Assembly: GCA_947476625.1 (NCBI GenBank)
Contig: CANJRA010000002.1
Coordinates: 1-64,000 of the forward strand
Direction of reading: 5' to 3'
Origin: Fidelibacterota bacterium
GTDB lineage: Bacteria; Pseudomonadota; Alphaproteobacteria; Rhodospirillales; Rhodospirillaceae
DNA length: 64,000 nucleotides
Each line of letters starts with the position of its first letter. The first letter of the stretch is position 1. Shown here in pieces: positions 38,708-41,337 of this stretch. The position numbers and the translations under genes were made by a program. Under the pieces are notes generated by a model. It was given only the letters and a program-made list of their open reading frames with translations. It searched no databases and was not told the origin of the DNA.

Positions 38708-38728
38708 GGCGCGCTGTTTCATCACTCA

Positions 38729-38769
38729 CCACCCGTCGTCCTCGGACGTGTTCCGAGGACCCAGGGTGG
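38729..38769. repeat. Palindromic element with GTCCTCGGA arms
   Basis: GTCCTCGGA (38738-38746) pairs with TCCGAGGAC (38752-38760), flanked by a second pairing CCACCC (38729-38734) with GGGTGG (38764-38769). It interrupts the stretch that is continuous in the second copy of the flanking repeat at 40867-40945, so it may be an element inserted into copy one. Confidence 0.55.
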
Positions 38770-38806
38770 CTTGGTCCGATGAATGCGGTGGGGACCAATT
38801 TATTAA

Positions 38807-38943
38807 AGCGTGATGTGCTTCGTAACCCTGGACCCTCGGGTCAAGCCCGAGGGTGACAGTAGGGTTTGTTGCGCGACGACGACTCAATTAATCCCGTTAT
38901 TTACTGTCTCACTGTCTCACGCCCTAGGGATGAGACAGTGAAT
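38807..38943. repeat. Direct repeat, copy 1 (left flank of the GT41 gene)
   Basis: This 137-base segment is closely similar to 40892-41038. Both start AGCGTGATGTGCTTCGTAAC, contain a stem of ACCCTCGGG/CCCGAGGGT (38832-38840 and 38846-38854), and end in the CTGTCTCA palindrome. An 18-base block (38705-38722) matching 40867-40884 lies further left and includes the HD-GYP stop codon. Confidence 0.75.
38897..38943. repeat. CTGTCTCA palindrome, copy A (right arm shortened)
   Basis: The left arm holds two tandem CTGTCTCA units; the centre is GCCCTAGGGA; the right arm has only one GAGACAGTGAAT unit, so one unit has been lost. It is the leftmost of five related palindromes. Confidence 0.75.
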
Positions 38944-39046
38944 CTCTGGTTGAGGTCTGCGTACCTTTTTTGTGATGTGCAAAGTCTAAACTTCTTCTAC
39001 GGTTCAGACTCTGAGTTCTGACCGTGTAGAAGCTAATAATACCCCA
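38944..39046. other. Leader region of the GT41 gene
   Basis: This 103-base non-coding segment after palindrome A contains no hairpin or promoter I can support strongly, and no clear ribosome binding site stands before the ATG at 39047. Confidence 0.3.
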
Positions 39047-40810
39047 ATGGAATCGTCGGCATTATATTTAGAAGGCATCGCCCACCATCGCGCGGGCCGG
39101 TTTCAGGATGCCTTGGAAAGTTATGACCGTGCGCTTGAGCTAGAGTCCAATTCTGCCGCCACAGTGAATAGCCGCGGTGTGACGTTGATCGCGTTGGGGC
39201 GGATCGAACATGCGCTCGCGGACTTTAAGCACGCCTACACACTGGACCCGTCCTACCTCGAGGCCTATCTGAACGCGGCCGCCCTTCTCAGAGACACCGG
39301 GCGTTTCGAGCAGGCTGTAGAGCTTGCGGACCAAGCTATTGCGGGGTGCCCGCAATCCGGAACGGCGTGGCACATTAAGGCTGTGGCATTGGACTGGCTC
39401 GATCAGCGCGAGGACGCCATTGACGCCTACGAGAAGGCGCTCGCGTGCGACGACACCATCGAACTCGCTGCCGGGCGGAGGATATTCCTGGCCATGCAAT
39501 CGTGCAGGTGGGAGGGCTTAACGACCGCGACCGAACAGATTTTGGCGAAAGTCGACGCCGGCCATCTCGCGTCACAGCCCTTCTTCTTATTGCCTTTGCC
39601 GAGTTCGCTTCCGCAACAACGCGCCGCCGCGGAACTGTTCTCCAAAAAGATACTTTCGTCGGATGTCTCGTATCCTTTTTTCCTTCGGCAGCCCGGCCAA
39701 AAAATACGCGTGGGTTATTTTTCCCCTGACTTGCCGCGCCCCACCAGCCACCTCATCGCCGGATTGATTGAAGCGCATGATCGCGCGGAGTTCGAGATTT
39801 ATGGGTTTCAGTACGGGCGGGAGACGCCCTACGACCCCATGAGCCAACGGCTTAAGGGCGCGTTTGATGTTCTCATCCCGATAGACATGCAGCCGAACGC
39901 GGACGTCGCGAGAATGGTGCGGGACATTCGCATTGATATCGCTGTTCATCTTGCCGGCCATACGAGCAACGGGCGTTCAAAAATCTTTTCACCCCGCGTC
40001 GCGCCGATTCAAGTCAACTATCTGGGCTTTCCCGGCACCCTGGGGATGGAAACAATTGACTATCTGATTGGCGACGACATCGTGATTCCGCCGGAGCACC
40101 AGCAATACTATTCGGAAAAAATAGTTTCACTGCCGTGCTACCAGGTGAACGATTGGAAGCGGCCGTTTCCCGAAGGCGTTGTTGCTCGGCGCGACCTGGG
40201 CTTGCCGGAGGACGCTTTCGTATTCTGCGGGTTCCATTGCGCTTATAAAATCACGCCCCGTGAATTCGACGTCTGGATGCGTCTTCTCAAGCGTGTTCCA
40301 GGAAGCGTACTTTGGCTTATGGGTGACTCGGACGAGATAACATCCAATCTGCGGAAGGAAGCGGAAGCGCGCGGGGTTGCCGCGGATCGCCTGATTTTTG
40401 CGCCGCGGGTATCCGTGTCCAAGCATCTGGCGCGACACTAGGCAGCTGATCTTTTCCTCGATACATTCACATACAACGCCCATACCACAGCCAGCGACGC
40501 GCTTTGGATGGGCCTGCCGCTTGTCACGGTGCTTGGCAATACGTTCCCAAGCCGGGTGGCCGCCAGTTTGCTGAACACCGCAGGCTTGCCGGATCTGGTG
40601 ACGCGGAGCGAGGCGGATTACGAAGCGGTGGCTTTCGATCTCGCGACGCATCCGGACAAGCTCGCCGGTTTTAAGCGCCATCTCATTCATCACCGCAAAA
40701 CCTGCCCGCTGTTCGACACAGCGCTCTTTGCGAAGAATATCGAGGCGGCCTATCGCAGAATGGTGGAAACGTACGAAGCGGGTATCCCGCCCGATCATTT
40801 TTCAATTTGA
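39047..40810 (+). pseudogene. TPR-containing GT41 (O-GlcNAc-transferase-like) gene with an internal TAG
   Basis: The frame runs 587 codons but is broken by a TAG at 40439-40441. The N-terminus has tetratricopeptide repeats (AGRFQDALESYDRALELE, LGRIEHALADFKHAYTLD, TGRFEQAVELADQAI). The catalytic part has RVGYFSPDL, AVHLAGHTSNGRSKIFSPRV and PIQVNYLGFPGTLGM, signatures of SPINDLY/OGT-type GT41 enzymes. After the stop the same frame continues AADLFLDTFTYNAHTTASDA, which holds part of the UDP-binding site, and reaches TGA at 40808. If the stop is real, the enzyme lacks its C-terminal donor-binding part. A CAG to TAG change would explain it, but other codons are possible. GT41 enzymes glycosylate proteins such as flagellins. 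Confidence 0.85.
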
Positions 40811-40869
40811 TTATTCACTGTCCCAGTGTCCCGCTTCCCTAGGGGCGGGGACACTGGGACAGTGAATAA
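40811..40869. repeat. CTGTCCCA palindrome, copy B (perfect 22-bp arms)
   Basis: The 22-base arms at 40811-40832 and 40848-40869 are exact reverse complements around a 15-base centre containing CCTAGG. It begins directly after the GT41 stop codon. Outer ends read TTATTCACTG and CAGTGAATAA. Confidence 0.9.
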
Positions 40870-40891
40870 GGCGCGCTGTTTCATTCATTGC

Positions 40892-41038
40892 AGCGTGATG
40901 TGCTTCGTAACCCTGGACCCTCGGGACAAGCCCGAGGGTGACGGTAAAGTTTGTTACGCAGACACGATTCACTTAGTCCCGTTATTCGCTGTCTCACTGT
41001 CTCACGCCCTAGAGGTGAGACAGTGAGACAGTGAATAA
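40892..41038. repeat. Direct repeat, copy 2 (right flank of the GT41 gene)
   Basis: Matches 38807-38943, with a complete rather than shortened terminal palindrome (copy C). The internal stem is ACCCTCGGG/CCCGAGGGT at 40917-40925 and 40931-40939. The two copies differ mainly by scattered substitutions and at the palindrome's right end. Confidence 0.75.
40982..41038. repeat. CTGTCTCA palindrome, copy C
   Basis: Arms at 40982-41005 and 41015-41038 complement at 23 of 24 positions. Each arm has two tandem CTGTCTCA units, and the centre contains CCCTAGAG. Confidence 0.88.
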
Positions 41039-41042
41039 GCAT

Positions 41043-41087
41043 CTGTCCCAGTGTCCCACTCCCCTAGGGGCAGGGACAGTGGGACAG
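41043..41087. repeat. CTGTCCCA palindrome, copy D (outer ends missing)
   Basis: The 15-base arms (41043-41057, 41073-41087) pair at 14 of 15 positions, with a perfect CCCCTAGGGG centre at 41061-41070. The TTATTCA outer ends present in other copies are absent. Confidence 0.85.
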
Positions 41088-41276
41088 CCGCACAGCTAGG
41101 CAGCAGTACCGATTTTGCTTTCCTTGAGACGCAGAAAATGTAGACACAGTGTGATCGCTGTTCGTGGACCATCATTCCTTTTGTATGAAGGAATGAAGGG
41201 AGGGATGGCTATTGAATCATCCTATTCAGTGAGGACGTTATTCAAGACGCGTCTGCGGCTTCGCGCATCACCCACG
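41088..41276. other. Non-coding gap between palindromes D and E
   Basis: These 189 bases contain no gene I can support. Short fragments at 41224-41246 (TATTCAGTGAG, GTTATTCAAG) resemble pieces of the palindrome ends and may be remnants. Confidence 0.35.
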
Positions 41277-41334
41277 TTATTCACTGTCTCACTGTCCCAC
41301 TCCTTAGGGATTGGGACAGTGAGACAGTGAATAA
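41277..41334. repeat. CTGTCTCA palindrome, copy E (perfect 23-bp arms)
   Basis: Arms at 41277-41299 and 41312-41334 are exact complements around a 12-base centre containing CTTAGG. It ends three bases before the ubiA stop, so it is the 3' hairpin of the convergent ubiA transcript. No T-run follows. Confidence 0.9.
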
Positions 41335-41337
41335 AGC

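Follow-up and report, generated by a model that had tools for sequence, protein, structure and literature searches.

The origins of iteron plasmids are built of tandem short units, presumably read by the initiator, plus inverted copies. Replication of RSF1010 involves the helicase RepA, RepC on the iterons, and the primase RepB at the ssiA and ssiB hairpins (PMC4234260). The Sulfolobus plasmid pRN1 carries, just behind its replication gene, a stem-loop of about 100 nt that is necessary and also works when moved; its structure is kept rather than its sequence, one stem mutation having been tolerated only with the symmetry restored (PMC4234260). The replication protein of pRN1 is a helicase with a C-terminal winged helix, and a similar stem-loop occurs in some phages, e.g., BIP-1 (PMC4234260). 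Short palindromes of another kind are the REP sequences, defined as palindromes of 20–40 nt, one end of which carries GTAG (or CGTC) as a tag; REP/RAYT, TIRYT, and CGTC REPs are short intergenic palindromes of Alphaproteobacteria and Bacteroidetes, some of them paired (PMC3733652).

Results

The window, that is, the whole stretch of 64,000 nucleotides analyzed here, contains five long palindromes, designated A–E, all within 38897–41334 (Table 1). Their presence, originally proposed from the sequence alone, was borne out by the arm unit CACTGTCYCASTGTCYC, to which the window has nine matches with no more than 3 mismatches where 0.45 would be expected, and by strong hairpin scores, the palindromes folded as single-stranded DNA giving z = −4.2 to −12.1 relative to shuffles. 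Recomputation reproduced the predicted arm pairing of B (22/22), C (23/24), and E (23 perfect pairs), as well as the one or two units per arm, with one unit lost from the right arm in copy A. The TTATTCA ends ascribed to all five copies are absent from D and read TTATTTA in A, but are present in the rest, and the CCTAGG-like center holds as a likeness, not as a constant sequence. In copy E, TCTCA forms the outer and TCCCA the inner units, mirrored in both arms. Two copies of a 144-nt duplication, 87% identical, carry palindromes A and C. A second type of palindrome, CCCTGGACCCTCGGG-CAAGCCCGAGGGTGACAG, adjoins A and C at 38827–38860 and 40911–40945 and resembles CGTC REPs, for which no transposase was reported (PMC3733652); similar hairpins adjoin palindromes in two further genomes (G010 and G017) too.

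Table 1 Features of the palindrome locus, with positions in the window
Feature	Position	Strand	Remarks
144-nt duplication, first copy	38798..38941	+	CGTC-REP-like hairpin plus palindrome A
Palindrome copy A	38897..38943	.	right arm short by one 8-nt unit; ends TTATTTA
GT41 (TPR/O-GlcNAc-transferase-like) pseudogene	39047..40810	+	single in-frame TAG at 40439; between A and B
Palindrome copy B	40811..40869	.	perfect 22-bp arms; start adjoins GT41 stop codon
144-nt duplication, second copy	40883..41026	+	hairpin plus most of palindrome C
Palindrome copy C	40982..41038	.	23/24 arm pairs
Palindrome copy D	41043..41087	.	without TTATTCA ends; one arm mismatch
Leader-like interval D to E	41088..41276	+	GGAGGG-ATG at end, ATG 41205-41207
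Palindrome copy E	41277..41334	.	23 perfect arm pairs; 26/27 when extended
D–E unit borders	left, copy D; right, copy E		read as a putative decayed palindrome-leader-palindrome unit

In the genome to which the window belongs (G000; 2.6 Mb, 50 contigs, 100% complete), the palindrome motif occurs at this single locus, as judged, like all genome-wide statements here, by pattern, family, and BLAST-type searches. The original statement that no named element of such a form was known stands: in an Rfam search, the element passed the gathering cut-off of no family, its hairpins matching microRNA models below threshold, and none was met in the open-licence papers searched. As also stated, no mobilizing gene lies in the window, and no candidate for a partner gene was met there or in the rest of the genome.

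Each genome of the genus has from two to 19 relatives of the GT41 pseudogene; since it thus belongs to a large paralogous family in all of them, its position between A and B is probably incidental, and it was rejected as the partner of the palindromes. In 12 genus relatives, HD-GYP and UbiA, the genes on either side of the locus, are neighbors without a palindrome of this kind in between, the insertion of about 2.6 kb between the two genes being present in the window alone. Because small inserts or genes in this interval (38708–41337; L090–L101) differ between species of the genus, insertions may be especially frequent here. Within the genus, intergenic DNA is too diverged for insertion sites to be compared.

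The matched differences between the arms of B and E, from which it had been concluded that complementarity itself is kept beyond sequence, proved to be real and general. Among 44 clean copies from many genomes, a set obtained in part with a pattern in which most arm positions are fixed and the variable ones left free, the same change was found in both arms at 20 positions, against 3.5 expected when the arms were re-dealt (maximum 12 in 5000 re-deals), and in one arm only at 31 positions. The differences per 7 bases amounted to 0.25–0.30 between mirror-image units, versus 0.45 between the two units of one arm. The left-right symmetry itself is kept, although not strictly. The CTGCCCCA spelling of the palindrome in G010 (L185 2926–2969; L213 621–664 and 886–929; L056 7807) likewise shows changes mostly in both arms together.

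A strict palindrome pattern, run over 85,000 species genomes, matched 15 stretches plus one viral contig, in the flanks of which the palindrome lies repeatedly just 3' of a gene ending in a helix-turn-helix (HTH). This partner, which the first reading of the window missed, encodes a replicative helicase of the AAA_25 type that ends in an HTH (Pfam, AAA_25 plus HTH). The palindrome and gene occur together in Bradyrhizobium, Mesorhizobium kowhaii, a Bacteroidales MAG, and several alphaproteobacterial MAGs, and also on a 57-kb IMG/VR contig and on plasmid 2 of Nitrobacter hamburgensis; in phages, plasmids, and integrated elements, the palindrome is found about 3–60 bp past the helicase stop codon. 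Seven of 317 genomes of the order carry the palindrome, and all five with strong homologues of the gene (G180, G092, G214, G010, and G175) are among these seven (Fisher p = 8e-10). The gene is absent from the palindrome-bearing window genome and from G017 (76% complete), so that the palindromes there are without a resident reader. Searches with the protein gave no match in the phage collection and one among plasmids, that of Nitrobacter, consistent with the palindrome link.

The AlphaFold2 model of the protein (25 homologues, mean pLDDT 87) has a RecA-type core and a C-terminal helical HTH region. Its top PDB matches, 1g8y and 1olo (E = 5e-12 and 1.3e-11), are the hexameric replicative helicase RepA of RSF1010, the structural match covering the core only; the GK of the P-loop is invariant, and the Walker motifs together with the RepA fold mark the protein as an RSF1010-RepA-like helicase. 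A sequence search found no solved structure for it, and PHROGs annotates it as primase/helicase and DnaB-like. Among the neighbors in eight loci are four genes that encode phage-integrase domains, three for Toprim primases (with DUF7146), one for a phage capsid, and restriction-type genes; these neighbors place the gene in a replication module carried by phages and integrating elements.

The association was also approached in reverse, by choosing loci by protein only. In a viral sample of 54 such loci, 44 of them non-redundant, the start of a strong palindrome falls in the first 60 bp past the stop codon at 24/44 loci versus 17/233 other ORF ends from the same loci (p = 2.8e-12), and the mean best hairpin score is 10.8 on the 3' side of the genes versus 6.2 in control windows. 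At the remaining 20 of the 44, a strong palindrome is absent over these 60 bp, some of the loci having units further away or as direct repeats. The same architecture is spelled in the viruses as TGTCCCAC, GTTGCGCA, GTCACGCG, GTTTCCTG, TGTGTCAT, ACTGGTGCA, and in other ways. While the arm spelling varies by lineage (TGTCCCA, TTGCGNG, TGTTTCA, etc.), the layout is constant, with two tandem units of 7–9 nt per arm, mirrored to give four units, often a CTAG/CTAA center, and often further single units following the palindrome. The center contains CTA or TAG in 15/23 cases versus 6.7 expected, and the tandem units within arms average 0.58 versus 0.46 in shuffles, a value not exceeded in every copy. 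Several direct-orientation, iteron-like single units follow the palindrome in L128 (from 3553), L129, L145, and L159; L135 has mainly direct units and a weak palindrome.

A second, independent sample, again searched by protein only, covered 398 genomes across the phylum, of which 8 have the helicase-HTH gene. All seven parsed HTH-tailed genes, and likewise that of L189, which derives from the order-wide search and is counted beside them, are followed by a palindrome 8–35 bp past the stop, the weakest being those of L226, with a score of 7, and L230, whose score of 10 is also reached by its best control window; TGTCGCA, TGTTTCA, TTCTCAT, and GTTCCGCC are new spellings of this sample. No two-unit palindrome was found 3' of the AAA_25 genes without the HTH tail in L190, L191, and L228, and in the fourth such gene, L192, a 17-bp hairpin is present and the two-unit form absent.

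Partial Mantel tests, in which shared ancestry is handled only roughly, gave a correlation of arm distance with HTH distance when the ATPase-domain distance is removed (r = 0.34, p = 0.0005; viral loci only, r = 0.54, p = 0.0005), whereas the correlation of arm distance with ATPase distance is r = −0.05 with the HTH distance taken out. The arms thus diverge along with the HTH rather than with the ATPase, TGTCCC-type sites being paired with tails like GxSVRDIA and TTGCG-type sites with GLSQSEIA.

Within the genus of the window, palindromes are dispersed either alone or as palindrome-leader-palindrome units of about 285 bp. G010 has the helicase-HTH gene in a chromosomal setting, with a palindrome on each side, and the units, 80–84% alike, lie on contigs C18 and C173 of the same genome and on C59 of G017. 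Their interior matches the leader of the G010 gene up to the start codon, both ends and internal leader thus being common to the gene-bearing copy, and by this sequence likeness they look like internal-deletion derivatives of the palindrome-flanked gene. The D–E pair of the window has the same layout; its interior matches the leaders weakly and in the gene orientation only (z = 3.4, 5.5, and 2.0 for the three units, 2.9 for the gene leader), the best alignment being CCGATTTTGCTTTCCTTGAGACGCAGAAAATGTAG against GCGGATTTCTCTTTACTCGAAACTTGAAAATTATAG with GGAGGG-ATG at the end, and the pair looks like a decayed unit of this kind. Near contig ends of G010, half palindromes (L216 ~138, L217 ~1240, and L218 ~1384, on C86, C160, and C197) stop at the CTAG/CTCTAG center and give way to unrelated DNA, which looks like the outcome of insertion-sequence entry at CTAG. 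Another genome of the order, G097, has more than 20 copies of CACTGTCTCACCGTCTC-like tandem units (L023, L026, L029, L034, and others); these lack palindromic form, were rejected as palindrome copies, and look like a repeat of their own.

Discussion

The results described above make it likely that the palindromes of the window are stranded cognate sites of HTH-bearing, RSF1010-RepA-like AAA_25 helicases, the sites themselves probably being replication origins. Location, layout, co-divergence, co-occurrence, and leader homology were established by computation; binding of the HTH to the site, origin function, and the route of dispersal we infer, as follows. The HTH tail would dock on the units of the palindrome, the mirrored arms of which may allow a hairpin, a cruciform, or a symmetric docking platform for a multimer. 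The helicase would then assemble or load at the palindrome and replication would start there, as at the pRN1 stem-loop origin. One HTH would have to read all units, so that arm sequence and HTH would change together between lineages; this single reader, together with the maintenance of the left-right symmetry itself, would account for arms that vary together. The site has probably spread through chromosomes of the genus, alone or as ~285-bp units, leaving in the window five sites, two of which (D and E) form a putative decayed unit.

By analogy, the palindrome most likely works like a stem-loop origin of the pRN1 type and the protein like RSF1010 RepA. As in pRN1, a stem-loop lies 3' of a replicative helicase gene with a C-terminal DNA-binding domain (24/44 viral loci and the phylum-wide sample), and structure is kept while sequence changes, the importance of symmetry being experimental in pRN1 only. 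Unlike in pRN1, the window itself has no helicase gene beside the palindromes. The pRN1 protein combines an archaeo-eukaryotic primase (primase-polymerase) with an SF3 helicase, whereas the protein described here has a RecA-type AAA_25 core, its primase being a separate Toprim protein or a fused DUF3854; and the pRN1 stem-loop has a large loop and no tandem units, whereas here there are two per arm. With primase and helicase of other types, the palindrome-helicase pair is outside the pRN1 family, and it is not REP/RAYT either. With RSF1010, it shares the RepA helicase fold and an origin that uses short repeated units and hairpins, but here an HTH is part of the helicase itself, and a single palindrome combines the units with the hairpin. 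Like iteron origins, the site has tandem short units with presumed reading by an initiator and inverted copies; unlike them, it is placed 3' of the gene, has mirrored two-plus-two units and a special center, and its presumed initiator is the helicase. In the open-licence papers searched, no published description of an AAA_25-HTH protein paired with a palindrome was found.

An unexplained repeat family thereby becomes a protein–site pair with a testable code, of which about 30 natural HTH/palindrome pairs with differing spellings permit specificity swaps. The origin of many uncultured phages and islands is predicted by one rule, directly 3' of the AAA_25-HTH gene, and arm co-variation is given a concrete reason, one reader domain plus symmetry. 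The findings also suggest a possible route for short palindromic chromosomal repeats without a transposase of their own. A far more speculative and, as a whole, doubtful extension is that HTH-bearing hexameric helicases represent an undescribed, widespread mode of initiation, self-loading at a co-diverging four-unit palindrome, with escaped sites forming new non-autonomous repeats that are copied in trans by helicases of phages and islands, possibly as origin parasites or decoys.

The palindrome might instead be the cognate site of the same HTH helicase for gene control, copy-number control, or partition, and not a start of replication. Binding to inverted repeats close to the gene that encodes them is common among HTH proteins, G010 has one palindrome copy upstream of the helicase gene too, and the location and co-divergence data fit such a role equally well; however, the site lies 3' of the gene and not at its promoter, the partner genes are primases, and the pRN1 precedent points to an origin, so that we regard this alternative as rather unlikely. 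Less probable again is a transposon-like unit, in which the palindromes would be terminal repeats, the ~285-bp units MITEs, and the ATPase an aid to an unknown transposase. The G010 gene with a palindrome on each side would suit it, as would the units that look like internal deletions and lie at separate places in two genomes, but phages and islands usually carry the site only 3' of the gene, with further direct units, and the protein is RepA-like, without a nuclease domain.

The link to REP sequences suggested in the original prediction, by which the palindromes would be spread by a RAYT (Y1) transposase or form the terminal inverted repeats of a RAYT-like (TIRYT) element, has little left in its favor. 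Like REPs, the palindromes are short and intergenic, with fitting size and symmetry, and some are paired; a CGTC-like hairpin adjoins copies A and C, and GGGGACAG fits the GGGGWSAS of published TIRYT ends (PMC3733652). They differ from REP/RAYT in their two-unit arms, in the helicase-HTH partner, in having no Y1 association, and in the missing tag, the window copies being 45–59 nt long with TTATTCA or CTGTC ends and neither GTAG nor CGTC. The reading is contradicted by the palindrome genomes G092, G214 (complete), G320 (Mesorhizobium), and G323, from which a Y1 gene is absent, and by the Y1 loci examined, 0/18 of which have paired CTGTCYC units; RAYTs of the genus have a different palindrome, GTACCTGGTAC. 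In the window genome, the only Y1/RAYT gene has GTACCTGGTAC palindromes on both sides (L007 1409–1470 and 2145–2181; contig C3, about 141,670–142,440), an arrangement syntenic in G010 (L040) and G017 (L041), where orthologs of the gene are flanked likewise.

Equally improbable is a transcription terminator or mRNA-stabilizing hairpin behind the helicase gene: the position past the stop codon agrees with it, but the window copies show no T-tract and no terminator-like match, the palindrome of L058 (a viral record) lies inside the next same-strand reading frame, and a terminator would not be expected to have tandem units that track the HTH. Least credible of all is an absence of function, with a symmetry made by template switching and DNA repair, which would explain the mirror changes and the unit loss of copy A without selection but does not account for a site that lies, in distant phyla, behind genes of a single family, or for the co-divergence with the HTH; contradicted for the family, such processes may have shaped single copies. 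An integron attC site was rejected, inspection having found no GTTRRRY/RYYYAAC ends. Finally, the helicase-HTH modules of L050, L223, and L127 adjoin nSTAND3/Mrr, type I restriction, and SAVED domain genes, which suggests that defence islands are among the carriers.
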